Below are positions 1,957 to 37,537 of a stretch of DNA of 64,000 bases, in pieces. The notes under the pieces were generated by a model that was not told where the DNA came from, ran no database searches, and saw nothing but the letters and a program-made list of their open reading frames with translations. The stretch covers positions 9,796,063 to 9,860,062 of the forward strand of contig JABBOT010000016.1 of assembly GCA_016165875.1 (NCBI GenBank), in the 5' to 3' direction. The position numbers and the translations under genes are program-made. Numbering within the stretch: position 1 is the stretch's first letter; every line of letters starts with the position of its first letter. This DNA comes from Acanthopleura granulata. Taxonomy: Eukaryota > Mollusca > Polyplacophora > Chitonida > Chitonidae.

Positions 1957-4900
1957 ATGGCGGAGGATAACAAATACGAGTTCACCTTGGCTGACGACAA
2001 GAGACCACCAAGGACGTCCAGGCTGATGTGCTGCTTGGTGAGTGCTCTCGGTGGAAAGTTCTACAAGGAAACATGCAAAGCTTGCTTGTGCTGACCCTTG
2101 TATCGCTTCCAAACCTCCATTAGCGGACCTCCGTGGCCGAGGGGGAAAAGCGTTAGTGCAGCCTAATGACCCAGGTGCCTCTCACCAATGCGATGGCTGT
2201 GAGTTCAAACCCAGCCGTCATATACGTGAAACTTTATTCCTGAGTACACGGCGTAAAGGGCCATTCAAATACGTTAAAAAATCCGTCTTGAACTCATCTC
2301 TTTTCGGTTTTAGCCTGTCTTCAAGATTTGCTTCAATATTGTGCATAGATTTCACAATAGCTTCCTTTTTTCATTCTACCTGTCTTCTTCAGTCTGAAAG
2401 AAGACTGGAAACCGCTTTTGAAAGAAAATGTCAATTATCAAACAAAAAAAATATGAAATAAAATTTAGACCACTTGCAATAACGTTCCATCTCTGAAAAA
2501 AAATGACCAGAGATGCAAAATGCATTTTTCATTTGAGAAGTGGTGAATTCTTATTTTGATAACTAGGCAGCAATATGATCCCAAATCAGACCAGTTCTTC
2601 TTTCGAAAGTGGAATCTATTTCAAAACTGATCCATGTTTATTTTTAAAGAGGTTTTCCTGTCATTTGTTTTAAAAATGGCTTCTACAGACTACCACAACA
2701 TCGACTACAACAGCAACACCAAGACTCACAGAATGAGAGGTGCGGGTGGTAGCGGAGAGATAAGGGCTCCTTACAGACATTATTTATGCAGGAAATCCCA
2801 TAGCAACCCACGCCGCAATAAGATAATATTCTCATGAAGGAAAAAAGAACAGAGGTATAATTTAATATAACCGAGAGTGAAAACAACTATTTTCAGCTTT
2901 CGTAATTATTTTCGCAGAAAACATAGAAGAAAAGAGAAAAAATTAGACAGTTGGCGGATTTGAAGACACTGTCAAAATGTGATGATAATAATAACAGAAG
3001 TGTGGGTAGGGTGTCATGTCTGGTGTCCGCAGCGTGATGTTCCGGCGACGTTACCACTTTCACTCACGTTGCCGTGTTACCTTTGTTTGAATGACTTTTT
3101 GAATGTGACAGTGTATAGGTTTTTTTTCTCTTCCCTCTTTCCAGAGTGGCTCCGTGTTGTTGTTGTCGGCAGCTGTGCTCGCCGCGGTGATTGCCATGAT
3201 TTATCAATACTTTGCGTAAGTGTTTCGTCATGACCTTTTTATAGTGCCTTACTTCGAAGTCTTGCAGCAGTTACTTTCTCATGAGTTGTGAAAGGAAAGG
3301 CAGTGAATTTGTAGAATTCCCTGGGGCCGGTTTCAGAAAGCGATTTTGGGCTTTAGCCTAAAACTGTGATCCAAATTAAACTGTGAAATACATGCATCAC
3401 ATCGGTCAAATTTTGACCCCTGATTCTATGCTGTGATGTGGCGATTTCAGGAAAGTTTTCAGACATTCAGCATCAAATATATTGTTTTCTTACAAAGATT
3501 AAAGTTTTCGGTTTCTGCCCAAAATCGTTTTGTGAAACTGGCCCCTATTCTCACTGTTTAGTGGAGCCTTAATCCCCAATAAGCGGTCGATGATTGCCGT
3601 GTGTCCGTTTATGAGGGAAGACGGCTTGTCTTCACCAATAGGGTGAGCATATCCGAACTTCGTACGTATGTTTTTCTACGTAAATGTACACTGTACGTTA
3701 AACGTAGGAATGTGGGAGAGTAATTTGCCAGACCTCGGAGGTTTATGCCAGGCACTCCGGTTCCCTCCCCACCTATGAAACTGAGCGCCATCATACTGGT
3801 GAAAAATTCTTGAGTATGGCGTTAAGCCATAATGATATAAGTGAATGAAATACATCTGTATGGTTTAACTATCGGGGCACAATTCCAAAATGTTAGTCTT
3901 TAACGAAATCAAACTTCAAAATTCCATTATAGCCATTATGCACATTTTAGGGCTCCAGAAATTCTTATTGCGACAAATTTGTGGCCATGCCGGTGATTTT
4001 GGCAAAACTCAACCAGCGCATATCCAGTCGATTGTTTGGTATTATTTTATAGAAAAGCCCAAATAATTGGCTTCCACAAAATATCAGCCCCGTCTGTGCA
4101 ACATGTTAAGGATAAATATCGGTAATAACATTCATACAATCTGTGATGGGGTTTCCTTATAACATTTTCCAAACTTTGAATCATATGAACTCCATCAAGA
4201 TTACAAAGGCCGTTTCGACAGAGCCATTTTTGACAACTCAAAATTTCAAATATGATTTTAGAGCTTCTTTCCTGGCTCTAGTAATTAAAGTTTTGATCAC
4301 TTCATCAATATTATGATCACACGAATGTTTCAAAATTTCAACTTTCACCGTCAAAAAGTAAGCAGTGGCGATGTTTTCAGTTTTGACTTAAGTGAAATCG
4401 GCCCCAGGTACGAGTCTGAGAGATAGTAATTTGAGCTTATGTTTAGGTGAACAGAATTCAATTTGATTTGATCAGAGAATATGGACTTTTTGCTTAAAAT
4501 CTCCGGTTAAGCCTCTTTGGAAACACGATCGCGCCATGATTCTCCTGCACACTTAAGGGCTATAAAATCGTCACTTTTCAGTCTCTACGCGCAGATCAAG
4601 GACCTGTCCGTGACCTGCAAACCGCCTAGTATTGTCGAACAGTATCCTGGCTACTTCCGGACTCCGCTGGAACAGATTGAGGTGGAGCGACGCTACAATA
4701 AAATTCCACAGTATCCGCCGACCACCCGACCTCTGCCAAACTGCACACTAGATTGCAATCCGAGACAGAAAAGGGACACTACGCATGCGTTCTCGCCGCG
4801 GAATGAATTGGAGGCTGTGGCTGTTAGTGCAAGCGTAATACGAAAGCTGTCGCGGACCAAACGACAGGAATTCCCTAACGGTGGACACAATCCAATTTTC

Positions 4901-7448
4901 CATGCCTGCTGCGAATCGTAAGTCAGTCAGCCCATCAGTCTGTACAAGGCCCTTGCGGTTTTGGTCCGTCTGTAAGCCTTTTCTGTTTTCTTAATGCTGA
5001 GATGTTTTGTCATATATAATTGTTTTATAATGTGAAATCCCAAAGTTAGCGGAGGTAGGAAAAGTATTTACAGCTTTTTGTTAACACTTTCTAAAGTGTT
5101 AAATATTGAACACCCTACAAAATGCCAAGTGTTGTATGCAGCAATGCAAATGTCGAAAATCCCATATTCTATATTGGTTTTATTTATTTCAATGGTATTT
5201 TACGACGTTCTTAAGAATATTGCACTTATACGGCGGCGGCTGGAATTATGAAAGCCACCACCCTCCGCGTATTCTATATAACATTATGTTATCGCTTGCA
5301 AACAATAATTAGGCGGCACATAGCATTTTACAGCGTTGGCTTTCAGATTATATACAATATGTAACATAATGCATCGATTTAACACTGAGAAGGTATTGAA
5401 AATTTAACAAAAGTTTTAAACGAGTTGCTTAAATAATATCAATGACCTTTGCACACTTCTCTCAGCTTAGCCGATCTATCATATGAGTCAGTAACTGCAT
5501 ATGTCCATCCTCGGATACCAACAGATGTTGTTAAAGTCAATCTGCAGGCCTTAAAGACACTGGAATTTTGATGATATCAAAGTAAATACCTATAAAAGTC
5601 TACGGAAATTGTAGCTTCGTGTCGAAATGAAATAACTATAGTCCAGTTGTGTGAACGCATTGATCATGCATAGTTCGTAAATCTGTGTACAACGGGGTGC
5701 CAAGTGAAGACGTTGTTTAAATTATTTGCGATCCGCCAGCAAGCTGCCCGGTTTCCTCCCACCATAATGCTGACCGCCGTCGTGTAAGTGAAATATTCGC
5801 GAGTACTACGTAAGAGGCCAATCCAATAAATAAATAAAAAGATATGTATTTGCGTGTAATTACAGAGAGAAGTCGTGGATTGCGCCTACAAGTGGAATAA
5901 ACCAGAAGGGAGAAGAAGTAACCGTCGTCCAGTTGGATGAACACAAACAATATTTTTTGCAAGAATCTTGCAAGTAAGTATCTTCTTATGAAAATTCCTA
6001 TAAATGGTCTCTGTAATGTTACGTGGGTTGGTCGAGTGGCCAGTTACCAAGCATTACCCTTGTGTGCCTTTGTAATATTACCTAGTAATTTTTATGTTGA
6101 GTATCGGTAAATTGCAAGTAGAGTGGTTAGTGTTTTTCGCGTTCTCCATAAATTGTGATTAATATGTAATATCATCCAATTTGAGTCGATTTAGTAACTG
6201 GAAATTGTAGCTACGAGTCGTATGCATGGGTCGTTATTTCTTTCTTTTCGAAAATATTGCTTTTGCCATTTTTATTCAATTACATTGCATATTTGACGAC
6301 ATCTGGTATAGATATACCCACAGATTTTCTTGACCTCTGAGAATGTTCTTCGCCTTTAACCTTAAGCATTTATTAATATGTAGTAAAACTTCATTTGAGA
6401 TGGCTTCAGATATAGCACTGCGCATTGGATCATACAAATGTCACAATTTCTTTTCTTTTTTTTTCGAAAATCGTCGTTTTGTGTGATTTCATCGTTACAT
6501 CGCAAAATTTGAGACATTTCATAAATCAACAGATTTAAACTTGAAAAATACTGGTATAGCCTCGATGCCTTCAGTCTGTACCTCTTACTGATATCCAAAC
6601 ATTTAGTCTACTGCGCATGCCCCACGATATCTTGAAAACGTGTGATATCTCACTCGTTAAAAATGCAGGACATGCTGATTTCCTCTCTGGTGCGACGTGG
6701 GAAGGTACGCCAGCAAGCTGCAGATGCATGGTTGTGGGCTTTCCCCGGGCTTTGCCTGGTTTCCTCCCAACATAGTGCTGTCCGCCATCGATTAAGTGAA
6801 ATATTCTTCAGTACGGAGTAAAATACCAATCAAATAAATAAATAGGTAAGTTGCATCATTATAGGGAATTGTCGCCCTACTGTACATAAACCGTTAAATA
6901 TAATGGCTAGAACATTAAATTATGCAAATGATTTCAATCAAGTCGCGAACAAATTTTGCTAGCGGTTAACCCTAACATGCATGAAAGGTATACTTTTCAA
7001 TGGCGGACAACACAAAAGGATCCAATTCGCATATAACTCATCATTTTCTGCAGTGACGCTTCAGTGCTTATGTACTACCTAAGTGCTTTCTGAGCACACA
7101 TTGCACCTGCACGTGTGACGTAGTCCAAGAAAGAAGAAGGGAACACAGGGCTTTGGACCCTTTGTTAAAGTTTTACGAGTTTCCCATTGAAAACATGTTT
7201 TCGTTTTCTTTGTGGCCACGATATTGCTGCAGTGTGGCCATACAAGCGTTATAAGGCTTCACCTTTCGTTCCTCTTGTTCCTTGTTAACAGGCATTCTCC
7301 CGGATGTGATTTCTGCAGATGTGGTCAGCCCGAGCCGTTTTTGGACACAGCCATCGTTTACAAAGATGGGGAGCAAAACGAGGTTCAGACTGATATTCTA
7401 CAGCTCCCTGGCTGCTGTAAATGCCTCAACATAGCTCTAGGCCAATAA
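1957..7448 (+). CDS. Membrane-anchored neurotrophin/Spaetzle-like cystine-knot precursor, copy 1 (5 exons)
   Basis: Exons 1957-2037, 3145-3215, 4582-4917, 5866-5973 and 7292-7448 join in frame (753 nt, 250 aa). All have GT/AG borders; intron phases are 0,2,2,2. Residues 1-27 are polar and basic. Residues 30-48 form one hydrophobic helix, so a type II signal anchor is likely. The prodomain has Cys63 nine residues before YPGYFR (72-77), and Cys105-x3-Cys109. Dibasic sites RQKR (112-115) and RTKR (142-145) suit furin. The released part (146-250, 105 aa) has nine cysteines: 160, 161, 198, 204, 207, 209, 240, 241, 243. Neurotrophins share the C-x5-W (Cys161, Trp167) and KQYF-x4-C (190-198) spacings; the CCKC end recalls Spaetzle. 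I infer a secreted or shed ligand. The start ATG at 1957 (ACCAACATGG) matches the short N-terminus of the paralogue; an in-frame ATG at 1861 is possible. Family placement is by eye and not certain; exon structure is firm because the paralogue repeats it. Confidence 0.8.
2038..3144 (+). other. Intron 1 of first cystine-knot gene
   Basis: Donor GTGAGT at 2038 and acceptor CCAG ending at 3144 with a strong T-rich tract. A SINE family 1 piece sits at 2124-2226; a 139-codon open frame over it is accidental. Nothing else recognised. Confidence 0.7.
2124..2226 (+). repeat. SINE family 1, 5' tRNA-like fragment
   Basis: CCTCCGTGGCCGAGGGGG, then AATGACCCAGGTGCCTCTC and GTGAGTTCAAACCC, correspond to the A-box to B-box region of the family. 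The 3' body is absent. Confidence 0.7.
3323..3545. mobile_element. MITE-like element with ~28-bp terminal inverted repeats
   Basis: The left end GGGGCCGGTTTCAGAAAGCG continues to TTTTGGG at 3350. The right end, read on the other strand, is GGGGCCAGTTTCACAAAACG and then TTTTGGG. The two arms match over about 28 bases with few mismatches and flank 170 bp without coding capacity. No clear target-site duplication was seen, so the superfamily is open. Confidence 0.65.
3715..3842 (+). repeat. SINE family 2, 3' fragment
   Basis: Contains GGAGGTTTATGCC, GGCACTCCGGTTCCC, GAAACTGAGCGCC and GTGAAAAATTCTTGAGTATG, in the order of the family's 3' half. Confidence 0.65.
5180..5265 (-). repeat. SINE family 1, 3' tail fragment
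   Basis: Reads TATTTATTTCAATGG, TTTTACGACG, TCTTAAGAATATTGC, ACTTATACGGCGGCGG: the reverse complement of the family's 3' end. Confidence 0.65.
5734..5840 (+). repeat. SINE family 1, 3' fragment abutting exon 4
   Basis: CGCCAGCAAGCTGCC, GGTTTCCTCCCACCATAATG, GCCGTCGTGTAAGTG and the AATAAATAAATAAA tail are visible. Only 25 bases separate the tail from the coding exon at 5866. Confidence 0.75.
5974..7291 (+). other. Intron 4 of first cystine-knot gene
   Basis: Donor GTAAGT at 5974 and acceptor TTAACAG ending at 7291. One SINE family 1 copy at 6672-6846; otherwise AT-rich and unremarkable. Confidence 0.7.
6672..6846 (+). repeat. SINE family 1, lacks tRNA-like head
   Basis: Begins at the GCTGATTTCCTCTCTGG stretch and runs through GACGTGGGAAGGT, GGTTTCCTCCCAACATAG and TCAAATAAATAAATAGG. 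The A-box/B-box head is missing. Confidence 0.75.
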
Positions 7449-8377
7449 CCCGCTCTTGGGAACACACGTCAACTCCTCCCCGCACCCCTACGTTGGGACT
7501 GAAAACGTACTGAACGATGAAACAGTTTATGTTACTCTTTTAAGAAAGTAGATTATCCCTCAAGCACGAACATGGGGTTTGGATTCGAGGAACACGGCTG
7601 TCAAGGATATAATTAAGTCACACTTTAAAATATGCCATAGGCACACACACTGTTACAAAATTGAGCATCTACACTTGTGTATACTAGAAATATACACAGT
7701 CATGTGTACCATCAATACACATGTTGTTTTCTCAAGTGTACAATTTGTATACCTGTAATGCACAAAGGTTGTAGGTGTTCAACACAGTCGTTTTTAGAGT
7801 GATCCGTGAAAGTCACAGAACACCATGTTTTCTAAGTGATGTTCTGTTATCTTTTCCTTCTGTCATTCCAACAGAATATTTTTGTGATTGTAAAGGGATA
7901 TTCTGTGATTCATAATATTATATTATGTTCTTGTAGCATAACCCCTTCTAGCGTCGCTCAGGAAACGTAATTTTATGCAAAAAGTAACAGATCAGCTCTT
8001 AGAGAATACCGCTCTATGTGTGGAAGGTAACTGCATTGCAACTCCCCATGGTGAGCTACAAATTTTGGTTAGAGAGTTTATACGATATCCTGAGATCCAT
8101 GCCTGTGTTATATAGAGAGAGTCGGTTTGAAACGTACTTCCAGAGTTTGGCATAACATGGATTGTAACGATTTTAAAATTAGCAGAATGGAGCAGAATTG
8201 ACGAATAGTGATTGTATGTTCGTTATAATTCTACACAGTAAATACATTTGAATGAGTAGTGCACAAATGGCAGGAATGAAGTGGAGAAAAGGGAACTGTT
8301 CTGTCTCAAAGCTATAAAATGCTGAAAAATAGGATATAGGTCTCATCTTACTAACGGTCATGGAAATTAGCATATTA
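7449..8377. other. 3' flank of first cystine-knot gene
   Basis: No clear AATAAA signal close to the stop. A weak inverted repeat at 7815-7912 (TCACAGAACACC against GGATATTCTGTGA) could be a tiny MITE. No gene seen. Confidence 0.4.
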
Positions 8378-8660
8378 TAATGAACGTAAACACAAATACA
8401 ACTCAGTATGAGGTTAACAGATTTTAGTGAACGTAAACACAAATGCAACTCAGTATGAGATTAACAAACTATAGTGAATGTAAACACAAGTACAGTTGAA
8501 TGTGAGTCTTAGATTACCAGACTAAAATGAAAGTAAATATAAGTACAACTCATTGTGAGTTACAGATTAACAGATTAAAATGAAGGTAAATATAAATACG
8601 AGTCCACGTGAGGCTTAGATTAATAGATTATAATGAACGCCAACATAAAAAAAACTCAGT
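8378..8660. repeat. Minisatellite, ~50-bp unit, about 5.5 copies
   Basis: Units begin near 8379, 8428, 8474, 8525, 8579 and 8629 with AATGAACGTAAACACAA or variants, followed by TACAACTCAGTATGAG and TTAACAGATT. The first two copies are closest; later ones have diverged and lengthened. Confidence 0.75.
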
Positions 8661-10630
8661 ATATGCATCCAAAACCAAAGGCAATCCAATATATGAAACC
8701 TGTACGTGGAAAAATTAACCCAGTCATGGGAAAGGAAATCGAAGCGTACTGAAGGGTTACAGGGACATAGAATTGCACTTAAATTTGGACTTGAAGATTC
8801 TACTTCTTGTCATTTGATATTTAAAACATCGGTTTGGTGATTGCGTGTATTTAATTAGAAGTTGGACTAAGTTGTATTGAACCAATAATTTTATGTTCTT
8901 CTGTTATAATCTGGTGGATATAGAAAGCCAAGTATTTAAGTTGATCCCGAAAGGCTTGCGTATCTAGAAACACCCCACCATGCTCCAGGATGTTCTAGCT
9001 CACTTTAATTTTTATAGCTGCCGTCAAGAAGATTTTCTTTACTCAAGTTATCTTCATGTCAAGATGGTGCCACAATGGAGAAAACCACAAAGCAAGGGGA
9101 ACGTGTTTACAGTAAGAATACATTCTTTCTAAATTTATGGAAACTTCGTCGATCACGTATCCTTCCAACTTCATACAAATTGTTCATTGCTCAAGTTAAG
9201 AAGAACTTAGTTATTTCGCTCTATTTTACAAACCAAAAAAAATCTCAGTCTAATTACGGAGAGATATAAGATGATGAAATCCACCAGTTGGTTTCCGATG
9301 AACATTGGATAATAGGTGTGTTTCGAGTTCGAACTCTTTTGTCAGTAAAGGTAAAAAGAGCCTTACTGTATCATGTGACGTGTCAAAACTGTTAGACAAG
9401 GTTTGTTGACTTCATTTTACTGATAACACATCTCACTGTGTTCAGGAGGTACAAATGTCATTGCTTTCCTGCAAGAACTTCTTATGTTCTCAATCCCCCT
9501 AGCTCTTCAATTTTCACCATTGTTTGCTAGTCTAAATAACTTTTTGTGACACTTTGCACACATTCATGTTACAGTAAATGTTATTAGATATAGTTGCCTA
9601 GCATTTTGTCAAGTCATGTGGTACAGTAGGACATTTTTACCTTTAGCGTTAAGAATTTGAACTGGAAACGTACCTATACCTCCTCTTCGGTCTTGTATGG
9701 TGTCTATTACGTATAAAGGAGTAATTTAGGTTTTAGTTCTCATTTTTGGAGTATTTTTTTTGTTGGTGCCTTCCATTTGATGCATTTTTATTATTTCACA
9801 ATGTCAGTAATGCAGATGGCAAAATTTTGCATTAAATGAAAGTTTCGAGGCCAGAATTGGATGTAATTTTGTTAAAAACTTATGCTCATACATTGATCTG
9901 AAGCTCCATGTTCTGTGTTCATATCAGTATTGTTACGTTCATTTTCGTATATCTTACCAGTGACTTCTTTTGATATGTTTCATTTTATTTCTGTTCATTT
10001 GTCTATCTTAATTTGTTTTAATCTAAATTTTTTCATTCCATTATTTCATAATTACAATATACTAGTTTTCTAATGTTTTATATTGCATATATAGTAGCTC
10101 TAAAATGGTTATATTTTAGACAGAAGGGAAATTTTGAAGCCAATATTGGGGACATGGCATGTGGAGAAAATGTGTGAAATTCCAGGAAAGAAGTGTTTGC
10201 TTGCAATTATAGGCACTTATGTATTTATTCTGTGAAGGCTACTTCACGTTTGGACACATGTTCTCACCAGCCATTCAAAATCAGTTCTATCTGGTCCTGT
10301 TGTGTGGCCTGTATACAGCTAACGAACATTCTAGGCCACATCTTTACTAGGATCCCATTTACACTCCCCTTAGTTTTCCTGTCCAAAATAAATTTTATAA
10401 CCAAGTACTAGTATACTCACCTGTCTCCATTACTCCACACCTGCAAAACTGCTGCTTTCAACATTTTTGTTTTCATTTTACTTGTTTAGTAATTAAATGA
10501 TCATTTCATGAAATCAACAAGTAGTGGTGTGGTCAGTTACTCCATAGTCTTTGGTTTACAAAAGCGATTGATTAGACAAAACAGATAATACCACACGATC
10601 TCTCTCTAGAAGCAACGGTTATTCCTAGAG
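8661..10630. other. AT-rich intergenic DNA, nothing recognised
   Basis: Many T-rich runs and no open frame with family-like motifs, on either strand. Confidence 0.5.
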
Positions 10631-10669
10631 ACCATTGTGACATTCCAAAACTCCTTTCAACAACATAGT

Positions 10670-11200
10670 AACCAATCCCAGAGGAATGCAGACATTATGA
10701 TATCGATAATCGTTCCTGGGGGATCCAGACATTATGATACGGGGGAATGCGGACATCATGAAATTGCTAATCGTTCCTGGTGGAATGTAGACATTATAAT
10801 ACCCTTCGCGATGATATGGCTGAGGTATTGTCAATGTGGAGTTACGCCATAATCATTCGTTGATAATAGCCCTATTCGTTTTTTGTTAAATGCTGATACT
10901 ATGATATCGCTAATATTTTCTGGGGAATGCAGACATGACGATATCGCTAATCCTTCCTGGGGAATGCAGACATGACGATATCGCTAATCTTTCCTAGAGA
11001 AATTTTGACGTTTTGGGCAGAATTTTTTTGAAATGAGATTCTACGCCGTTCTTTCAATGCATGGCTGAAAGAGTAAAACTCCAGGCTGCATTAATTACTG
11101 GTGCTGTGACCAAACAGGAACTTTACATTAAATCTCTTACTTCAGTTTCCTTGGGGGAAGGCAGACATTATGACATCGCTAATCGTTCCTGGCTGCATGC
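10670..11200. repeat. Scattered ~38-bp repeat array
   Basis: The theme GGGAATGCAGACATTATGA, then TATCGCTAATCGTTCCTGG, occurs about seven times between 10675 and 10990 and again near 11155-11190. Spacings vary and there are substitutions and unrelated inserts. Confidence 0.7.
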
Positions 11201-11369
11201 TGAGGTTATGACATTCCTATATATTCAAGGACGGTTCTTGGAGTCATGCCTGCATTAAATTGATTAATTTTTACATTTTCTTATCCCACCCCACCCCCAT
11301 GAACATGGAGGCATATAGCGATCGCTTTTCCCATCCGTCCGTCTGTCCGTTCTTGCCCTCGTTGAACGT

Positions 11370-11713
11370 TGTACGGATGTGTATGTCAGCAACTATTACA
11401 CATAGGATTCTCAGACTCACACAAAGTGTGCAAAATGACCTGAGGTTATGTTCTGTCAGGTTATTTTTTTCGCGTTTCGATATATTTAGGAGTTATCTGC
11501 CCTTGACAATATTTTTCAACTTTGTACAGAGCATATCTCAGCAACTATTAGGCATAGGAGTCTCAAATTCACACAAAGTGTGTAAAATGACCTGAAATTG
11601 TGCACGGTCAGGTTATTTTTCTCTGTTGCGATCTCTTTTAGGAGTTGTCTGCCCTTGTGCGTACCTCTCAATTAAGTATGTGCGGAGCATATCTCGACAA
11701 CTATTACGTATGT
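11370..11713. repeat. Tandem repeat, ~153-bp unit, 2.2 copies
   Basis: Copies start near 11370, 11525 and 11679. Each has CAGCAACTATTA, CACACAAAGTGTG, AAAATGACCTGA, GGTCAGGTTATTTTT and AGGAGTTNTCTGCCCTTG in order. The third is cut off after its first 35 bases. Confidence 0.75.
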
Positions 11714-14700
11714 ATGCTGAATAATAAATAAGTGAAATAAAATATATTATGCGGGGACAAGCAGCACGGCGTTACACTACAGTGAAATGATGCAGTTATT
11801 GGCAGTGTGATTAACCAAGGTTTTATACGGTAAATTCCCTAAAATTTCTCCCATGGGTTAAGTTGCTAATTTAGCCCAGATCTGGGAGTTATATAGGTCT
11901 TGTAGGAAGGGTTTTCGACATTCGAATGGGAGGCAGGTAGATATTCTCTTCGAAAAAATATAATTTTCGGCACCTAAAGTCTCTCTTACAACATTTAGTT
12001 GCCTCTAAAGAATGGACTATTAGTACGAAATGTTACTTACGTCATAGGATGTACGGAGAATGTTTGTAACGGATAAAAGGAAAAAGGTTGTATCAGCCCC
12101 ACATATACGTTGAAACTGGGCCTTAAGTTAATCAGCAGATTTTTCCATTTCCTGAGGAAGCCTGATCGGTTGACAAGATAAAGTACTGGACGCAGCTCTG
12201 GAAGGGAAATATGCCTACAATTTCACGGAAAATATGTCTACAGTGTCCAGAAAAACATGCCCAAAATTTCATGAAAATATAAAAATCAGAATATTGAAAT
12301 ACCCACCAAATATACTGAGCACAAACAAGAAAGTAATACATAGATAAATAAATTAAATAAACGACGAATCAAGAGAAGGGATATAACCTCTGTATATGCT
12401 ACGTTCAAAATAAAAGAATATTGTACAACGATGCGAGCATAAGCGTTAGTATCACGACAGGCATAACGCTCACGCAGAATCTTGTACTTTTCTGATAATG
12501 CAGCAAAAACCCTAACTATAGAACAATCATGAAGAGAATAGTTACACTAAAACTATACACAATCCGGCTTGCAGGGAACAGATAACTGAGAAAAAGAGAG
12601 CCCATTCGTATGACTTAATGTGCTTGATTTCAACGGCCATTTCCTGCCTTCTGCAAACCCAGGCCAGCAAAGAGAGTCAGCAATTTTCACACCTTGCAAC
12701 AGTAATAACAGTTTGAGGTTATGGACTAGATTGCAGTTAATAGAAAAGAATGAAAGGTAACTGAGCCTTGGAAAGCTGGATTGTTTGCCTGGTATTTAGC
12801 ATCACATTGGTCATATGACGACGGTAGAGTCCTCTTGTGGAATCTCACACCCAATTCCGGCATTTTTGTTTTCTTATTATATATATAATTTTATTTACAA
12901 TCATACATTACAGAAATACATTTTAAATTCTACATTGTACAGATATAAATGAAAGTATATATTTGACCTAATATGTATGTGTCTTCTTTGTGGTCAGTCC
13001 AGTCCAAATCCTAAATATGAAATATTAATCCTGTTTCCTGTTCAGGAAACATGCTTCCTGATTGAGAACAAATGATATGAATTTTATTCACGTCATATTT
13101 AACTAAATAAGAATCAAGTCTAAAGATTACTTTTCTTATTTTGGAAACTTGGGTCAGTATTTTTAAAATACAATTTGTAATTTTTTATCACCCGTTTTTA
13201 ATGCTATTTTATCAGTTGGAAAATTTAAAAGCTCGTCTCTCAGCTCCCACAATCCTGTACATGTAGGGATTTTTAGCAAAAAATGTTCAATCATTGCCCA
13301 GTTTAGTGGGCCTAGTGGCATTAGTGTTAGTCTGCGTTAGGCCAAGTTATGGGTGGCCAAAAGAAAGCAGTACCTGTCGGAAATGAATTGTTTCTGAGCA
13401 CGCAACGTTATCTGAGAATGCCTTGCGTTTCCTATTTTAGTAACAATTAATTGTTTCCTAATCAGGGTACATTGTATAAATTTTTCCAAAAGAGAAAACA
13501 TTCCAAAAAATGTCCAGAATAGGAAGGACATGCAAAAGATTCTTGAACAGGTAATAAACTGAAAAAGATATTAAATTCAAGTACTTTCTGATAAAGAAAC
13601 AAAGCTCGATTCGTAAAACAAGATGATATTCTTACAGGTCCTGTTTATGTAGGCCTACAATGTAGGAAAATGAGGTTATACACAATAAATACATGTCATT
13701 GCTTAAATCACTATAAAAACCACGTTGACCTGTAGTCTGTATAGAGGTTGCCTCGGAAATGTTACATCGCTAACTAGGGTCTTACAATGATACAAGGCTA
13801 CTGCAATTTATACGTATATATGCTGAACTGTTTCACTCCCGTGCGAGCTGTTCAGTACAGAAACTGTTACATAGTTCAAAAATGTCAAATACTTCATGAC
13901 CAGTACAACGTCTACTAATAGTTATTTATCGGAAGCCTAAAATACAAAGGAGAGGAGCTTTCAGTTTGATGGTTGTCAAAATTCCAAACCTAACCAGTAA
14001 ACAAAAAAATCCCTTTTGAAATGAGGGGAGCGGTTTAAAGCAAATATAAGCTATAGTTCTTTTACATATGTATTGAGTCTCAGTATTCGTATTCATGTTT
14101 TCTTTTTAAGGTATATATGTTGCAAAGCAAATTTGATTAAATGATTCAAGCTAATGTTACATTGCAATAACATTTTCTAAAAATACAAACATAAAAATCA
14201 ACTAAAAGGTAGGTTTGCTATTAGTGAATGTCTGAGTGAATTTGAAGAGGAAAAGGAAAAGGTTTCATAGATTCATTCAAAAGGCAAATTTCTTTGAAAA
14301 AGTCAATAGCATTCAGTGTTTTGAAGAATCAACAACACTATGTTTTCCTGTTTGAAATTATTTAAATTGTTCGAAATAGCATTGTGACAACTGAATACAC
14401 TAAGTGAGTGTTGTACGTTCTGACCATACGGATGGACATGCGTTTGAAACAAAGTAGGTCAGACACACATGACAAATTGCAAATTGACAATCATTGCTGT
14501 TTTTAATAACCGAGACAGGGTGATATTCTAACAATAATTTAGATGTGTGTGTTTAATATCAAAGTCAGAATTCTCAATAAAAGCAATTCATGGTGATGGA
14601 ACGATTACCAATAAGCATATACATTATGTTTGGATATGTACTTATGCAGGCTATGACGTACATGTATTTAAGGAGAAACACGATAAAATGAGATATTAAT

Positions 14701-16495: not shown

Positions 16496-16499
16496 CAAG

Positions 16500-17395: not shown

Positions 17396-17399
17396 TTTT

Positions 17400-19334: not shown

Positions 19335-19558
19335 TGCGCTTGCGCATCATAGTGACCCAGAAGCCTCCCATCAATGCGGTCGCTGTGAGTTCAAGTCCGG
19401 CTCATGCTGGTTTCCTCTCTGGCCGTACGTGGGAAGGTCTGCAGGCAACCTGTGGATGGTCGTTGGTTTCCCACCATAATGTGACCGCCGTGGTATAAGT
19501 GAAATATTCATGAGTACGGCGTAAAACACTAATCAAATAAATAAATCAAACAAATAAG
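19335..19558 (+). repeat. SINE family 1, near full length
   Basis: From a degraded head (GCGCTTGCGCATCATAGTG) through TGTGAGTTCAAGTCCGG, GTACGTGGGAAGGTCTG and GAGTACGGCGTAAAACAC to the AATAAATAAATC tail. The GGGCTCTGCCCGG stretch is deleted. Confidence 0.85.
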
Positions 19559-20215: not shown

Positions 20216-20219
20216 AGGC

Positions 20220-20960: not shown

Positions 20961-21794
20961 CCACGCATATGCATGCCGTTCAATCTTAGAACAACTCTAC
21001 GAGATAATGTTCTCAAATTTTCGATTTAAATTATTTACACTGAGCTTTCTGTATTTTTCCAAATAAAGTCTTACACATCTTATAACCCCTCTGTGTTTCC
21101 CCAAGATTTGATAAGTTTCCAATATCATACAACCACAGAAATGCGAAAATCCAAAAAAAAAAATAGTAACAGATTGAACAACAGTAAAAGTTGTAAATAT
21201 TCAAAATTAAAGACAAAACAATGAAACAGACAAATGTACAGTTTCGCCTCTGAAATTATATGTAAAAGGTAATCGAGAGCCTCCTGGATTTAATTAGCCC
21301 CTGGATGGACCTTCATCTGTAATGATTCGTGCCCCTCCCTTCCCCACATAGCAGATATGGCGGGAGTCTGCTTACAGATACTTATATACAAAGACCAACA
21401 ACCCCTAAGCTTTAATTCTCATGTACTAAGCTAAATGTTCACACAGCAATAATTAGTTTTAAAAAATAGAATGACATGATCTCAAGCTTGCTATGGAAAG
21501 TCACAATTTTATTGCAGGAAAAACAGCTAAAAACAGCGCGAGTGTCCACAATTTGAGGGCTACTCGGGCCTATTCGGTTACTGGAGGCTACTCGGGCCAG
21601 AGCCCTCTTTTTTAGGCTGGGATAATCTGACTCCCTTTTTAAAATTTCGTTGTGTTTGCCAATCGCCAAGGCTGTGGACCGATATACTATTATCCGTCAA
21701 CATTCTGTATATGCTCAAGCGTCACTCAGCGGACCTTCCTTGAACACGGAATCTGCTTGTCCGATTTGGAATACATATAAGCCTAACAGTCACA
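20961..21794. other. Intergenic DNA, nothing recognised
   Basis: No gene or known repeat seen. Confidence 0.45.
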
Positions 21795-21942
21795 GTATCT
21801 CCGGGGACTATTTCACAGTATCACCTGGGATTATTTCACAGTATCACCTGGGACTATTTCTCAGTATCACCTGGAATTATTTCACATCATCGCCTGGGAC
21901 TATTTCACAGTATCACCCGGGACTGTTATATAATAGTCCCAG
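21795..21942. repeat. Minisatellite, ~25-bp unit, about six copies, ending in a palindrome
   Basis: The unit is GGGACTATTTCACAGTATCA plus CCTG. The array closes with the near-perfect palindrome GGGACTGTTATATAATAGTC plus CC at 21918-21939, which brings an inverted half-unit against the last direct unit. Confidence 0.85.
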
Positions 21943-23404
21943 GTATCACTGACTAAAATTTGTTTTGAACCAATGATATCTTCACCAAAATCGTAGGCTG
22001 GACAGGTTTTATTTACACATGTTAGCAGATAGATTCCAAAATTTAAAAAAAAAAAAAATTAGCTCTCTATTTGCGCCAACCTGCGGGATACTGATATGAT
22101 CCTCTGGTATGTCTGGTATAATCTCCTTAACCAGAGGAACTGTTGCACCTCAAGTTAAGGTCAACCGCATGAAAAAAATACAGAGTTAGTTCCTAACTCT
22201 TCAATCACTTATATGTCACAGTTCACATTTACACCTATATCTTGCCTCATGACATTCATTTGTTAAGGCTCACTGAACCTTTATAAACCTCAGAACTTTC
22301 ATAGCAAAAGAACAACACAATAAGCCCATTTTTTGTATCTTTTAAGATATCATATATTTGTGGAAGTGTTTTGTTTTGTTTTTGTTGTTTGTTTTTTGGG
22401 GTTTTTTTGGTCAAGAAACGTGAAAGACAAACATTTACATTTTCATTGTTTTTTTGATCTTTTTTGGGGGGGAATTAACTCTAACCTGCGTGATCTTAAA
22501 TGTAGGTGGAATGCGTGGTGGTCAGTGGTATACAGGGATTTTTCAGTGGTTAAGTGAAAACATATGGGGCAGACTAACCTTCACGCTCATTAACTGCAGG
22601 TACTATATACAAACCAGAATCCAGCAGTCAAAAGCTCGTAGCTGGTAGAATCATTTTCGGGGATTTAAATACATTTACACACTTGACCAAGACTATCCTT
22701 AAAAAAGTTTCTTATTGTGCATTAATACGCAAGGTAATCTGGAAATACAGGGAATGTCGCTACTGCTATTTTTCATATCTGTCTAATGAAAACGTTAGAG
22801 ATTTTAAAAAAAATGAACACTGAGTGGACACAGTTTAAAGAACAAAATCTTTGACTGTATCCTTAAGATTTTCCTGGTGTGAGGGTCATGATATCCCTTA
22901 TATGATGTCAGGCATTTATGCTGGGATCACGTCAAGAGGGTTTGAAATTTAAGGACAGCGGCATTTGTGGATTAGGAATTACTCCTAATTTGCAAATGGG
23001 GAAGGGGAGGGGATCTGACGTAAATGGGAAAACTAAAGTGACTGGATTAGTGACATTCACTGCTGTCAACTTTGATTTTAAACTGAGAAAAGAAATGGGT
23101 AAACAAAATTTCACTTGTGTCAAAGGGAGAAAATTTTAGCACTACTCTGAGCAACTCACATTAGGTCACTTAACTTTTGAAGTCCAACATATGTATCTTT
23201 AAAAGTCGACATGTTATATCTTTCCACGTGGGGCACTGACTTCAGTTTGGGGGCTAAGTGCAAGATGACAAGATGACATGAAACTCAAGGTCAACTGAAT
23301 GTTACAGCTAGTTATTGCAGCTAAAAATATGTGTACAAAATACCGCAAATCTGTGACCAGGGACACCAACACAGAATGTACATCCCCAGACCATTTATTT
23401 ATCG
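21943..23404. other. Intergenic DNA, nothing recognised
   Basis: A T/G-rich stretch lies at 22365-22475. A frame-open area at 22918-23139 is open on both strands and has no motif. Confidence 0.45.
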
Positions 23405-23406
23405 CA

Positions 23407-23461
23407 ACATATATATATATATATATATATATGTGTATATATGTACATATGTATATATATA
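23407..23461. repeat. AT microsatellite
   Basis: (AT)n grading into ATGT and GTAT variants over about 55 bases. Confidence 0.9.
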
Positions 23462-24214
23462 GTTTGCCCACACAACATCATCTCTAAGGCAGAAACACAC
23501 AAAAGAGTACACAATTTAGGGCTGACGTACTTATGGCTCCCTATTCTTCAATGGGCACACGAGTGAAGCTAACTCCAGCTGATCCTCAGACAGCTAATGA
23601 CGCGCGTTCAAATGCCGCTGTCGCTGGTTTCACAGTGTTTGTTTCAGTCAGGTTGATTCTCATTTACCGTGTAAACATGCGGTGGTTATTCACTCTAAAC
23701 TCAGCGCGGTGACCACGTGAAAGAGAACGTCTGAGAAAGGGTGATTGTTTGCAGTGATTGATTACTACTTTCAAGAAACGTCGAATATGTGACACAAGTG
23801 GATGACACCCTATCTGTGCCACTCACCTGTTGGTGATAGCTGTACTAAAAAAAAACTTCTTGCACCATGAATGGAAACGCTTATATATATTTCCTTATAT
23901 GACACATTTCCGAAAATGTTTTACGCTTCTTTGAACGTGTAAGAGGGAGCGCTGTATTTGTTCAGATCTTTTCTTTGTGGATCTTGCCATACAGGTGTGA
24001 TATGAATCATACGGAATTCAAATCCTTTGTATACACTGAGACATTACCAAAAATGTAGTGGGAATTTCTGGCTGCAACCCGGAACCGTACTTGTGTGAGT
24101 CATATAGTTAGACTCCCACGGCATTAATACATAGGAACAAATTTAAGCACCTTTACCTGTTTCGAGTTTCCTTCATATTGATACAATGTAAAAAAATCAG
24201 ACGTAATAACTGAG
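23462..24214. other. Intergenic DNA, nothing recognised
   Basis: No gene or family repeat recognised. Confidence 0.45.
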
Positions 24215-24494
24215 GGGGGAAAGTGGCTCAGCCGGTTAGCGCGCTATCGCAGCACAATGACCCGAAGCCTCCCACCAGTACTGTCGCTGTGAGTTCAAGT
24301 ACAGCTCTTGCTGGCTTCCTCTCCAGCCGTACGTGGGAAGGTCTGCCAGCAACCTGCGGATGGTCGTAGGTTTCCTCCGGGCTGTGCCCGGTTTCCTTCC
24401 ATCATAATGCCTGCCGCTGTGGTATAAGTGAAATATTCTTGAGTACGGCGTAAAACACCAATGAAGTAAATATGTAAATAAATAAATAAATAAG
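24215..24494 (+). repeat. SINE family 1, full length reference copy
   Basis: A-box TGGCTCAGCCGG at 24224-24235 and B-box-like GAGTTCAAGTAC at 24291-24302 have pol III promoter spacing. The body includes CGTACGTGGGAAGGTCTGCC, GGATGGTCGTAGG, GGCTGTGCCCGGTTTCC and GAGTACGGCGTAAAACACC. The 3' end is (AAAT)n. This is the most complete + strand copy. Confidence 0.9.
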
Positions 24495-25146
24495 TAACTG
24501 GAAAATCTAAAATTGATCATGTCATCAAACCTGAGCACTATTACTTCTTACATCGGTCTTGTGTCACATTGATGCTATGTACAAAAAATGAAACGTAGTA
24601 TTAAACTGAAAATCCAAGTGTCACAAAAACAGGTGTGTTTGTATCATAATGCTATCATTATATTGATTTCTACAGTGATACAAATTTAACACTTTACAAT
24701 ATGCTAAGAGAATGATGTCATCTAACACTGCCCTACTATCAAATAAACAAAGATTTTCATGATGTGCTTATAAATCTTTGCAAAGTATTGTTACTTAATA
24801 TCATGCAACAACTTGCTTACAATCGTTATGTGAAGTAGTCACCCTTGCAACATTTAACATGTCGTAACGCAGTTCTCCAAAATATGTTTCAGACGAAAAA
24901 TTTTAAAAGTCTTGTAATTTAACTTTATGTTAAAAATTTGCAAACAATCTATACGAAGCGAATCATTTAACACAGAGGACATCAGGCTTTAAAGCATTTA
25001 AGATCTAGACAATACTTTGCGCATGCGTGTTAAGAGAGCGCGCGCTAAATGCAGACAACAAAAAAGAAAAAAAAACTTGCATGAAGACCCGGTGAGTTAG
25101 TAGCACCAATTTAATTCCATACTCACCAGCCTATTAAAGAAGAAAC

Positions 25147-25258
25147 GTTTCCTCTTACCACAATGACGTCGCCATGTATTGTGACATATTCTTTAATACG
25201 GCGTAAAAAACAAATAAATAAATAAATACATACATAAATAAACACACAAATAAATATA
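25147..25258 (+). repeat. SINE family 1, worn 3' fragment
   Basis: CCACAATGACGTCGCCATG, GTGACATATTCTTTAATACG and GCGTAAAAAACAAATAAATA recall the family's 3' end with many changes. Confidence 0.5.
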
Positions 25259-25308
25259 AAGGTAAAAGTTTTCCATTTCTTCCACTGTGTACACATAATA
25301 TGCGTACT

Positions 25309-25392
25309 GGGGCCTCGGTAGCTCAGTTGGTTAGCGTGCTAGCGCAGCGTATTGACCCAGAAGCCTCTCACCATAAATAAATAAAATAAATA
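25309..25392 (+). repeat. SINE family 1, head fused to tail
   Basis: The tRNA-like head (GGGGCCTCGGTAGCTCAGTT, GCTAGCGCAGCGTATTGACC, AGCCTCTCACC) passes directly into ATAAATAAATAAAATAAATA. The whole body between is deleted, as may happen by template jumping during insertion. Confidence 0.8.
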
Positions 25393-25825
25393 CATTTCAT
25401 GGCAAATATTTAGCTGTTTTACGGTGTAATTGATTAAAGGAGGGGAAAACCTTGGCCTATATTGTACCTGGTGGGCTTTCGTGAATCATTCACAGCACCA
25501 CGAAAACATACACGTGAGTGTGAATCCCGGATTTTAAATACAAAGCGAATAGAAAATAGTCCCGCCAAACAGTCTATTGACTATGCTCCACGGTACACGG
25601 GTCCATTCAACCAGCGCAAAAAAACAAGAAAAAAAACCCCAGACCCACAGCCTATTTTTAGAACATGGGCTCACTTGATTTACAAACCCTAGAGGTACAT
25701 GTATGGTAGTTTATTGCCATCTGTGAATTTAGTACATTCTCACTAAGGCTGTGGAGAACTCTTTTTACCATACCAAACAGACTGAGATATATTTTGATTA
25801 GCCCAGAGTCAATATTCGCGTCCAA
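25393..25825. promoter_or_regulatory. Presumed promoter region of second cystine-knot gene
   Basis: No TATA box, CRE palindrome or G-run comparable to the first gene is obvious in the 430 bases before the ATG. The assignment is by position only. Confidence 0.3.
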
Positions 25826-28800
25826 ATGGCGTCGTCAACTCGACTGGTGTATTGCTTGGTAAGTATTTATTGACTATATAGTAACTTTCTGTAGCCTTGC
25901 ATAGAAAACAAATAGGTATGCTTCAGTTCAGCATTCTAGGGGGCCTATATACACGTATGGATTATAAAACTGACTAAAGCTCTGTAACTACAAGATTCAA
26001 GGTGCTATATGTCTACACGGGGAGAGAACTACAGTAAGTAGCTATCACGCTTTGTTTATCTGTAGAACGAACTTAAGCGAAACTGTTTAAGGGCTTAATG
26101 TTTTCTGTAAACAACAAGTCGGGAAGGACTATTTGCTTTCACGTTATGTCGGAAACATCACATTATTTGGCCATTGGATAAAGCTTTTTGTATTATATTT
26201 TGACAGTTAGCCAAGGGCCTGTCTCACAGAAAAGCTGACGACTAATTCAGTCGATTATCAATTTTGTGTATACATGTTTCTGAAGGAAAATGTTTGGCTA
26301 TCGGCTAAAGCTCTTTGTCTTAGATTTTCAAACCTTAATCCGAAATCCTAAGTCATGTCCCACACCGTCTAGGAGGAAGGAAAGCGCGCTTTAAAAGTGT
26401 AATATCTTCAATATTGGAAGGTGTATTTACTGATTAGAAAATAATAGCAATATATCAGCTTCTCTCAGCACAATCTTCAGAATATCGTTTTAAAGCTCAC
26501 AAACCACCAAAACACGTAGGTTGTTGTTGTTTCTCTTCGATTGTCTGCTGTGGGGGTTATGGTTCTTTGTTTACACGCCGTGTTCAAAATGATAATGAAG
26601 AAAACATTATCATCTGTTTCTGATATTTATAAATAGTAATTTAGTTAATCAACCCGGTAAAACCCTTGGTGCTTAACAAGTTTCAAGAGAGAGCTAAATT
26701 AAGTAACTATCACATTTCGCTTATCACTAAAACGCACTTCAACGAAAAAATAAGGGCCAGTTTCTTCTAAACAACAACGTAAGGAAGGACTTAATGATTT
26801 TGGTTTTCACTCTATATGTTGGAAATATCACATTCCACACGGCGTGGATTTCTTGCAAACGGGAAGGACATAACCCGATCCTAGAGCCGCATGTTCGTCG
26901 TCTTGAGTAAGATCGCCAAGTTGGATATATGAACAGTTGCATTCAAAGTGCAACTGAGATAAATGTATATTTGATTATCGAAGGCAAAAAATGGATATAC
27001 TTTATTGTATTTGAAATAAAAAACTAGACTGTAACCGAATTAAGAAAAAAACCTTGGAAGTTTTCATTAAATTGCCTAAGACATAGGCCTATGCCGAAAA
27101 TAATGGACGTGTCCATTGTTTCAGTGCGTTCCAGCTCACATCACCCTAAGTACAGTTTAAGAATTAAATTCTTGGTCACATTGCATTTGTAATACGCCCT
27201 TTAAAAAGTGTCAAAAGGAAGGTGGATCTTCTGAAGTCAAATCGTGCATATCGAAATAAATAGACCTGAGTATGGGCTTTTAAAACATGTTGAAATCAGG
27301 TGGGCAAGTGAAAATCATAGCAAAGGTTTGTGTTGACAATCTGTCACTCGTCAGTATAGGTTTTGTCCCTTATTTCTTACTCCAGGTTGGCATCATTCTA
27401 ATTCTAGTCCTCATCGCAGCCGCAGCTGTAGGGATCCTCGTGTGGAGATTTGCCACGTAAGTTACATAGCAAAACGTCTAAGGATCCTATATATGATTTA
27501 ATTATTTATTTCATTGGTGTTTTAAGCCGAACTCAAGAATATTTCACGTGTATGACGACCACCAGTGTTATGATGGGAGGAGATCGTTCCGAACCCGGGG
27601 GAACCCCACGACCATTCACAGTTTGCTGGCTGACCTTCTCACCCCGAAGTCATGAAAAGATTTACTTACTTTCTTTAGGCCTTTAGACATTTAATCAAGG
27701 ATAATGGGTGTATAAGTTATTTTATTTGTTCTTCTTATTCTGTTATGTTTAATGTAGGCCCATATGGGCAAAGAAATTTGCATCCATTACTAAAGTGTTC
27801 AAGCAGATGGAATGTAAGTCTAGATTTGACGATTGATTAAACGTGGAATTTATACTACGGAGAGTGGAAAGTAGTTTATTCCCCTCTTGATGGAAAATTG
27901 TTCTGAACGGGAAATACTGTAAGTCTAGATTTGACGATTGATTAAACGTGGAATTTATACTACGGAGAGTGGAAAGTAGTTTATTCCCCTCTTGATGGAA
28001 AATTGTTCTGAACGGGAAATACTGCACTGTAACAAAGTCGTGATTTGTTACAAATCATAAACATGTGTTGAGTTTTTCTGTCTGTTCCTCGACAGTGTGG
28101 CCGAAGCTTTAGAGGACTTTGACAGTTGTAGAGAGGAAAATCTATCCGATTTGTTCCCAGGCTATTTCCGTAATGCCGAGCAGCAGTTATTATTCGTGGC
28201 ACAGTTTACTAACGTAACTAGCCCTGTGAAAACATACTCCCCAAAACAATGTGGATTTTATTGCCCTCGTAAAAATACGTCCAACCCTAATGAGATGACT
28301 ACCATCACGTCGAACAACAACAGTACTACAACTACACTGTCCAATGTGGCGAGAAAACGAAGGCGTCGAGATGTCAGCAATGTGTTAACGAAGAGCAAGG
28401 TGGCGTCGTTGAAGGAGTCCCCTTTCCGGAAGAAGCGTGAGGTGCCCTCTGGCGCTACAATTCTGTTTGGACCTGTGTACCACGCTTGTTGTCAGTCGTA
28501 AGTTTTCTTTGAACATGTGTTAAGCTGAAAAAACATGTCCTAATTCAGATTACAAAAATGCAATAATTATGGGCAGGTCATCCTTGGTCATTGACGGAAG
28601 AAGAATTTGAGAATTTTAAGAAAAAAAGAAGGTTGGGATGTATGTAACAATTATTTATATTTCTTTTTAAAAACGAACATCGTTTCCCGCTCAAAACTTG
28701 TTCCATATTAACATTTTTATCTGTTGAACAATTATCTGGAGATATAACATATCTATTTATTTATTTGTTTGTTTATTTGGTGCTTTAAGCCGTACTAAAG

Positions 28801-31170
28801 AATATTTCACTTATACGACGGCTGCCAGCATTGTGGGAGGAAACTGGGGGAAACCGACGACCATCCTCAGGTTGCTAGATTTGATGGTGTCAAAGGCTAA
28901 CATATATATTTTATGAAGACGTATTTTCAAATATTTGCAGTGAACTGACCATCGCCGTTGCCATGAATGGCTGTACAAAGTACAGATCCCTATCTTAACC
29001 TGAAAGGGGCTTCCATGGCCGAGGGGGCTTCAATAACCCTGCCTCTCACCAACGCGATCGCTGTGAGCTCAAGTCCAGCTCATCGTGGCTTCCTCTCCGG
29101 CCATGCATGGGAAGATTCACCAGTAGCCTGCGGGTGGTCGTGGGTTTCCCCCTGGCTCAGCCCGGTTTCCTCATATCATAATGCTGGCTTCCGTAGGTAT
29201 AAGTGAAATATTCTCGAGTATGGCGTAAAACACCAATCAAATAAATAATAAATCTTAACTGTAATCATACTGGTGCCGTTCTGCCATTGAAGTTGTCTCC
29301 CTTCCTGTTTGGCTTTGTCCAGGTGGCGTATCATAACAACTCCGACGTCTGCAGAAACCGTGGAAGGAACTGTCGTGGAATTGGTTCAGAACGTGGCTGG
29401 GTTTTCACAGTACTTCATCTCTGAATATTTCGAGTAAGTTCCCAAAAGCTGCTCAACCCCCGAATGGTCGCGTGTTTCTCATCGGCTCTGCCAGTGCCAG
29501 ATTTCCCCTGACCGCCACATTGCGGCAGCCGCCGCACAAGTAAAATATTCTTGAGTACGGTAAAGTCCTGGTTAATGGGAATGCAGGTTGCCATGGTTGG
29601 CACAATTCACTTTGCCTATGATTGAACTGGACACTTCTGTATAAGTGATTTATTTATTTAATTAGTTAATTATTTATTTGATTGGTTTTTTACGTCGTAC
29701 GCAAGAATATTTCACTTATACAACGCCGGAATGCATTATGGTGGGAGGAAACCAGGCAGAGTCCTGGAGAAACCCACGACCATCCGCAGGTTACTGGCAA
29801 ACCTTCCCACATACGGCCGAACAGGACGCCAGCATGAGCTGAACTTGAACTCACAGCGACCTCTTTGCTGGTGGCTTCTGGGTCATTACGCTGTGCTAGC
29901 GCGCCAACCAACTCAGTCACGGAGGCCCCCTGCATAAATGATGGTCTTTTGTTTACCACCTCAAAGTCATATGTTCCGAAATTATTCATTTACTTAGGAT
30001 CACGAAGCTGCCTGAGACTTAAGTGATATTAAACCCGGGCTTACATTTGAATTTAAATGTTAATTTTTTAAATCATAAAGGTTCGTACTAAAACAATTCT
30101 TAACATTGAATTAAAAAATCTTTAAGGTGCATGAGTGATGAGTGATTCTAACCCATGCAGTAAACTTTTTTGAAGTCAAGACTAACTTTGACTTAAGTCT
30201 AAGGCATATGTGTTATCGTGCGACCTGTGTGTCTGTGTACAGAACAGAGTTTGTCCAGGATATGACAAAGTATATTATGTGTAAGTGATAAGAATGTCTC
30301 GTCAGCTACATTCTGGATACCCCGAGATTCTCCGAGATCAAGCTCTGGATTATGTACACACGATTCCCCCAAAATCGGATGGGGTGTTAAGGCCGCATAT
30401 ATTTTACTAGTAGGTCGCTCCGGAGCTTTACACAGCGACCTAGGATATGGATTTTTTTCTCAATAAAGAGATAAAAAAATAACTGTTGTTCAGCAAGTCA
30501 CAGAACGCGTTGAAAAGCTGAGAAAAATCGAGCTGTAATGCAGTATTATTTACAGTCGAAGTTTGTATAACGCATGTTTACTGAAGATTGAAAATAGTTC
30601 CTTCCGTGAATATTGCTTCCCCTATATATAGTTCCCCTTAATCTTCATATTTTTAAAATGGCTAGTTGCTGCATAGCAAGCTAGCCAGCTAGTGACATTG
30701 AGTTAAGAATGTCAACAACTATTCTCTGCTTTAATAATTATATCTAATTATTAAATCTCTATATTGTGTGTATATTATATAGACATGTTTGCTTCAATAA
30801 TTTTTCAATACTTCAAAACACGATGCAGATTAGTCAGTGAAAACCGTAAGCAAACTCCTAAAAACTCATCCAAAAAGTATTCATTGTCCAATAGTATGTA
30901 TAACAGATGTTTCCGTTAAGGTTTTGATACTTGCAAAAAGCCCGTTTGAAAGGCATTGACCAATGATTTTTTCGCTTATTGAAACAACACTCCTGTTCTG
31001 TTTTGTTTTCCAGAGAGGAATCCACGTGCGAGAACTGTCAGTGCGGCCAGCCAGATCCATTTGTATACAATGCCGTATATTACAAAGACAGACGTGCCAT
31101 TAAGTTCAGGAAGAGATTCGATATTACCTCGATCAAGTTGCCAGGATGCTGCAAATGTTTAAATATTTGA
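25826..31170 (+). CDS. Membrane-anchored neurotrophin/Spaetzle-like cystine-knot precursor, copy 2 (5 exons)
   Basis: Exons 25826-25858, 27386-27456, 28096-28497, 29323-29433 and 31014-31170 give 774 nt (257 aa) with the same phases as the gene at 1957-7448 and identical lengths for exons 2 and 5. The cytoplasmic tail is only 11 residues, and an in-frame TAG lies just upstream of the ATG. A hydrophobic helix follows at 12-31. The prodomain repeats the signature: Cys46, FPGYFR (55-60), Cys87-x3-Cys91. A Ser/Thr/Asn-rich stretch (95-118) has NTS and NNST sequons and may be glycosylated. Two basic sites follow, RKRRRR (121-126) and RKKR (146-149). The mature domain (150-257, 108 aa) has eight cysteines: 166, 167, 211, 214, 216, 251, 252, 254. 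QYF (198-200), CENCQCGQPDPF (211-222) and LPGCCKCLNI (248-257) align with copy 1, but the Cys after QYF in copy 1 is missing. Likely a shed ligand; receptor unknown. Product call is inference from fold-like spacing. Confidence 0.8.
25859..27385 (+). other. Intron 1 of second cystine-knot gene
   Basis: Donor GTAAGT at 25859, acceptor TACTCCAG ending at 27385. No repeat family recognised in its 1.5 kb. Confidence 0.75.
27501..27640 (-). repeat. SINE family 1, 3' two-thirds
   Basis: ATTATTTATTTCATTGGTGT, AACTCAAGAATATTTCACG, GAACCCGGGGGAACCCC and GCTGGCTGACCTTC are the reverse complement of the family body. Confidence 0.8.
27814..28023. repeat. Tandem duplication of exactly 105 bp
   Basis: The units 27814-27918 and 27919-28023 appear identical base for base. 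Both start with GTAAGTCTAGATTTG, so a splice-donor-like GTAAGT is doubled inside the intron. Confidence 0.95.
28751..28879 (-). repeat. SINE family 1, 3' half
   Basis: TATTTATTTGTTTGTTTATT, CCGTACTAAAGAATATTTCA and GACGGCTGCCAGCATTGTGG are visible in reverse orientation; the head is missing. Confidence 0.75.
29005..29254 (+). repeat. SINE family 1, near full length
   Basis: GGGGCTTCCATGGCCGAGGG to CACCAATCAAATAAATAATA. There is a small deletion between A- and B-box regions; B-box-like GAGCTCAAGTCC. Confidence 0.85.
29434..31013 (+). other. Intron 4 of second cystine-knot gene
   Basis: Donor GTAAGT at 29434, acceptor TTTTCCAG ending at 31013. It carries a worn SINE-like piece at about 29447-29570 and a full antisense SINE at 29648-29931. 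A short inverted repeat, AGGTCGCT and AGCGACCT, lies at about 30411-30441. Confidence 0.75.
29648..29931 (-). repeat. SINE family 1, full length
   Basis: Reads tail (TTTATTTATTTAATTAG) to head (AACCAACTCAGTCACGGAGG) with every family block in order on the opposite strand. Confidence 0.9.
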
Positions 31171-37535: not shown

Positions 37536-37537
37536 CA

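Follow-up and report, generated by a model that had tools for sequence, protein, structure and literature searches.

A tandem pair of five-exon genes in the chiton Acanthopleura granulata belongs to a cystine-knot family that is probably Spaetzle-type

In insects, Spaetzle is the signalling protein that activates Toll receptors. Spaetzle-like genes have hardly been reported beyond arthropods and their kin. A search of three lophotrochozoan genomes recovered no Spaetzle, an absence from which, in the excerpt concerned, it was deemed too early to conclude (PMC2772990), and among ecdysozoan samples Spaetzle was detected only in tardigrades and onychophorans, by a search that was stringent by the source's own caution; the same excerpt proposes an origin within the panarthropods or the hexapods for Toll activation by Spaetzle (PMC7056985). 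For molluscs there is the Paphia undulata gene (Yu et al. 2015), by title a Spaetzle, which was called in 2020 the sole Spaetzle described outside arthropods (excerpt of PMC7773633) and is also cited as a reference in PMC6915886. Here we describe two genes in a 64,000-nucleotide (nt) window, the whole stretch of A. granulata DNA that was analysed (contig JABBOT010000016.1, here C16, positions 9,796,063 to 9,860,062), which we consider probable members of a chiton Spaetzle-type ligand family within the neurotrophin superfamily, their products most likely being furin-processed, dimeric Toll ligands.

Gene 1 (1957-7448, plus strand, 250 amino acids (aa)) and gene 2 (25826-31170, plus strand, 257 aa) each comprise five exons, with lengths of 81, 71, 336, 108 and 157 nt and of 33, 71, 402, 111 and 157 nt, respectively. 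Every intron is bounded by GT..AG, the phases derived from the exon lengths are 0, 2, 2, 2 in both genes, and exons 2 (71 nt) and 5 (157 nt) are of equal length in the two; the tandem five-exon pair put forward in the sequence-only reading of this window is thus real, its coordinates and exon lengths having been reproduced exactly. Both products share one layout: a short N-terminus, a hydrophobic stretch, a prodomain, furin-type sites and a cysteine-rich end. Aligned with each other, the two proteins are 33% identical, and their similarity (111 bits) is far above chance, given a top score of 32 bits among 9000 shuffled sequences.

The family assignment was based on profile comparisons of six proteins, namely those of genes 1 and 2, of two further A. 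granulata genes (genes 3 and 4) and of two Liolophura sinensis genes (P0001 and P0002). The Pfam Spaetzle model (PF16077, cut-off 27 bits) ranked first for all six, exceeding the cut-off in three (gene 1, 35.9; gene 3, 33.6; P0002, 38.2 bits) and falling below it in three (gene 2, 15.5; gene 4, 22.7; P0001, 16.5 bits). The Pfam NGF model (PF00243) was over its cut-off in none of the six (gene 1, 15.2 bits), and the NGF signature [GSRE]-C-[KRL]-G-[LIVT]-[DE]-x3-[YW]-x-S-x-C, used as quoted in an excerpt of PMC2772990, was found in none of the four A. granulata genes, relaxed form included. A profile of the four chiton knots matched 21 PDB sequences, all of them Spaetzle or neurotrophins. By these profiles the C-terminal end is a neurotrophin-superfamily cystine knot, and the Pfam and PDB matches support the earlier proposal of a family of cystine-knot proproteins akin to Spaetzle and the neurotrophins. 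Its qualifier, "distantly related", holds as to kinship and understates the nearness to Spaetzle, as judged from the two Pfam scores of gene 1 and from a CCxC end, a Spz trait (excerpt of PMC2772990) in which an extra cysteine stands beside the fifth knot cysteine. Genes 1, 2 and 4 have this end (gene 3 reads SCKC), so that the "CxC end" previously ascribed to the window genes must be corrected to CCKC. An alignment of gene 1 with Aedes Spz1C also pairs an extra cysteine (CDFC vs CNFC) with the second interchain cysteine of Spz1C, the residue numbering being one off from that in the excerpt of PMC9427763.

Compared with the Spaetzle family (PF16077; Drosophila Spz C-106, Aedes Spz1C), the chiton proteins share a C-terminal neurotrophin-type knot by profile, the CCxC end, the Aedes-like extra cysteine and a precursor spread over several exons, and differ in a hydrophobic segment behind a cytoplasmic-like N-terminus, a PGYF/C-x3-C prodomain, an HxCC doublet, a very short loop between the third and fourth cysteines and the lack of one knot cysteine in gene 2. 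With neurotrophins (PF00243) they share the fold, by profile and by a weak model, a furin-type site before the knot and, in gene 1, the C-x5-W and KQYF-x4-C spacing; they differ in lacking the NGF signature, in having CCxC for CxC and in a knot that spans three exons rather than the single exon of L001 (C2:18867101-18867406), a clear neurotrophin of the same genome with an RTKR site. The neurotrophin-like spacings noted earlier thus stand for gene 1 and fail for gene 2 (SQYF, and phenylalanine for cysteine).

The mature regions of genes 1, 2 and 4 were used as queries against the genome (606,523,666 bases, 87 contigs), and the best candidates were scored. The family comprises at least four genes, all of them on contig C16, where three lie within about 130 kilobases (kb). 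Gene 3 (C16:9702150-9697633, minus strand), which has a proline-rich prodomain, and gene 4 (C16:5183818-5181841, minus strand) score 106 and 90.9 bits against gene 1; their hydrophobic exons are 71 and 68 nt long, and their phases match those of genes 1 and 2 from this exon onward. In neither gene 3 nor gene 4 did a search locate exon 1. Constant in all four genes are PGYF, the prodomain C-x3-C, H-x-C-C-x-S, QYF-x2-E, C-x2-C-x-C and a terminal C-K-C-L-N, together with the HxCC doublet and the four residues separating the third from the fourth knot cysteine. All six knot cysteines are present in gene 1; the second is replaced by phenylalanine in gene 2 and is missing in P0001. Genes 1, 2 and 4 have a furin-type site ahead of the knot; gene 3 has no match to [RK]-x-[KR]-R. 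The same searches gave other weak matches at C2:16056059 (E 0.53) and C83:14277083 (E 8.5).

Liolophura sinensis is a chiton too. Its protein P0001 (LOC135464772, isoform X2) is 68% identical to gene 2 (174/255 positions), has the same first exon start and is ten residues shorter behind the putative anchor; P0002 (LOC135464732), a model of 128 aa that is missing its N-terminal half, is 73% identical to gene 1 (91/125 positions) and retains RTKR before the knot. Because P0001 shares the cysteine loss of gene 2, assembly error or recent decay of that gene is unlikely. For both proteins the listing gives one and the same length for the longest contig (25,057,479), and the linkage of the two genes could therefore be old. 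Both are named uncharacterized at source, one with a machine-made PF16077 tag, which fits the earlier suggestion that the family is possibly undescribed; a literature search that left out most subscription journals and could not handle umlaut spellings had nothing on such genes in chitons among the records it listed. Searched against the protein database, the four-gene alignment found these two proteins as sole relatives (scored: the 7999 candidates with most words in common), full-length gene 1 gave 519 candidates, none at E <= 1, and its knot region gave 3 candidates, none at E <= 10; this search depends on 5-residue words in common and restricts length, and is no proof of absence from other molluscs. 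The label "spiralian" goes past the data, with members found in two chitons only.

In gene 1 (all exons on the plus strand), exon 1 (1957..2037) carries the start codon and a charged N-terminal segment ending RLMCCL, followed by the donor gtgagt; an RLxxCL end is common to exon 1 of both window genes. Exon 2 (3145..3215, 71 nt) encodes the hydrophobic stretch SGSVLLLSAAVLAAVIAMIYQYFA, a putative anchor (hydropathy of the best 19 residues, 2.39). Exon 3 (4582..4917) encodes the prodomain, which contains YPGYFR and C-x3-C, together with two furin-type sites and the first knot cysteines (HACC); the sites are RQKR (residues 112-115, 4763..4774, position computed from exon coordinates) and RTKR (residues 142-145, 4853..4864), the likely knot release site, which is kept in the Liolophura counterpart. 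The knot continues through exon 4 (5866..5973), with KQYFLQESC, and exon 5 (7292..7448, 157 nt), with C..C.CGQP, LPGCCKCLNI and the stop. Gene 2, likewise on the plus strand, begins with exon 1 (25826..25858; MASSTRLVYCL), one of five rows listed when ATG exons were sought under a strict donor rule, which is supported because the N-terminus of P0001 matches it (MASTRLVYCLVGI vs MASSTRLVYCLVGI in gene 2). Its exon 2 (27386..27456, 71 nt) encodes the putative anchor VGIILILVLIAAAAVGILVW (hydropathy 3.21, best 19 residues), and exon 3 (28096..28497) the prodomain with FPGYFR and C-x3-C, HACC and furin-type sites, at RKRRRR (residues 121-126, 28352..28369) and at RKKR (residues 146-149, 28427..28438), the likely knot release site (both positions computed). 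Exon 4 (29323..29433) contributes SQYFISEYFE, with phenylalanine at the position of the second knot cysteine as described above, and exon 5 (31014..31170, 157 nt) contributes CENCQCGQP, LPGCCKCLNI and the stop.

From these features a course of action can be proposed. In genes 1 and 2 the hydrophobic stretch after the short N-terminus reads best as a signal anchor, and a type II precursor with its N-terminus inside is plausible; across genes 1-4 and P0001 the hydropathy of the best 19 residues is 2.39-3.21. Cleavage at the furin-type site before the knot would, for genes 1, 2 and 4, release a soluble knot dimer, for which insect Spz2 and Spz5 serve as analogues of furin-type release (excerpt of PMC9427763). 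By comparison with Spaetzle, the extra CCxC cysteine (C240 of gene 1) would hold the dimer together, perhaps along with a second interchain cysteine, as in Aedes Spz1C. As receptors for the released dimer, Toll/TLR proteins are the most likely, in a signalling role that would be immune or neural. The product of gene 3, without a furin-type site, would work tethered or unprocessed, and the orphaned partner cysteine of gene 2 might, as a guess, pair with the extra HACC cysteine. On the receptor side, 76 TIR matches were found in the genome among the matches listed, counted by TIR alone. The five best TIR matches lie within ~75 kb (C83:9975911-10050266) and may form a cluster of TLR or TIR genes.

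An ordinary secreted precursor, whose hydrophobic segment serves as a signal peptide and is cleaved off, would replace the anchor alone and is compatible with a Spaetzle-type ligand. Known family members have such a peptide (excerpt of PMC3790821). By eye, AEA in gene 2 and ALA in gene 3 come after the stretch, although no small-x-small site is common to all genes. Usual signal-peptide cores are shorter than the ~20 residues seen here, and the stretch of gene 1 is preceded by 27 residues, many of them charged; we hold cleavage to be a serious possibility, if the less favoured one. That the models, gene 2 above all, represent a prediction artefact or a decayed gene would accord with the missing knot cysteine, but splice sites and frames are all intact and the conservation in Liolophura, cysteine loss included, makes this explanation barely credible.

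Several results weigh against the assignment to Spaetzle. The open frame L002 (C5:26999447-26999659, minus strand; 145 aa, its first knot cysteine doubled to CC and its end reading CVC) lies above both Pfam cut-offs (NGF, 37.0; Spaetzle, 30.4), so that the two models overlap and a Spaetzle match alone is not decisive. For gene 2, XRCC4_C nearly ties with the Spaetzle model, and both this gene and its counterpart P0001 lack one knot cysteine. PF16077 run against the genome gave three weak places and no exon above cut-off; one is exon 4 of gene 1, and the other two (E 0.58 and E 0.93) were taken as chance from their frames. Profile scores for cobra NGF and Aedes Spz1C came out equal, and constraining the chiton genes to one group was tolerated (approximately unbiased test, p-AU 0.13), with the tree open around them. 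Taken with the signatures constant in all four genes (the HxCC doublet, the four-residue gap, the prodomain PGYF), the last two results would suit a third branch of the superfamily, one of molluscs or of chitons, that is neither Spaetzle nor neurotrophin and has its own receptor. The small trees, with few rows and not relied on, fail to separate Spaetzle from such a branch: a 13-row tree (109 columns) joined the chiton genes to Spaetzle against neurotrophins (92/93), with a long-branch warning from the tool, and a 12-row tree without L002 (104 columns) left them unresolved between the two. The first place of the Spaetzle model in all six proteins, its passing of the cut-off in three and the CCxC end in three of the four genes speak against a third branch, which we consider unlikely. 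Divergent neurotrophins acting on Trk/p75 seem more improbable still. The spacings of gene 1 and its best single PDB match (cobra NGF, E 3.2e-4, vs Spz1C, E 0.0015) point that way, as does the fold model of P0002, whose first matches were NGF, neurotrophin, coagulogen and Spz1C with NGF above Spz1C, from a weak model (predicted local distance difference test (pLDDT) score 54.6); the search with the P0001 model (pLDDT 32.9) was discarded as meaningless. The NGF model and signature nevertheless fail throughout the family, and the genome already holds a clear neurotrophin, L001, which has an unsplit knot and fits the signature in relaxed form alone (the strict form misses it). The NGF-family matches L001, L002 and L003 are not members of the four-gene family; L002 perhaps links the two families.

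Elsewhere in the window, a direct tandem duplication of 7.4 kb, 98.7% identical, spans 35617-50345 (35617-42983 vs 42977-50345); additional partial copies lie at 52374-56859. MAPEG-domain open frames (PF01124, cut-off 23.4 bits) lie on the minus strand at 57271-57807 (36.1 bits) and 43893-44486 (32.9 bits). An Rfam scan of the window gave zero matches at the gathering threshold.

Returning to the Spaetzle-type assignment, it bears on the question, still open, of whether non-arthropod Toll receptors answer endogenous protein ligands or microbes directly. Given a conserved chiton Spaetzle-like family, in a genome that also has numerous TIR matches and a distinct true neurotrophin, an older origin can be tested directly. 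A bolder reading, less likely than not, is that chitons, and perhaps other molluscs, possess a distinct neurotrophin/Spaetzle branch of type II anchored proligands, in which some members would be furin-shed Toll ligands, gene 3 would be a cell-contact ligand and the gene 2 lineage would have remodelled its knot to do without the second cysteine. The anchored precursor, if true, would be a new way to present such a ligand.
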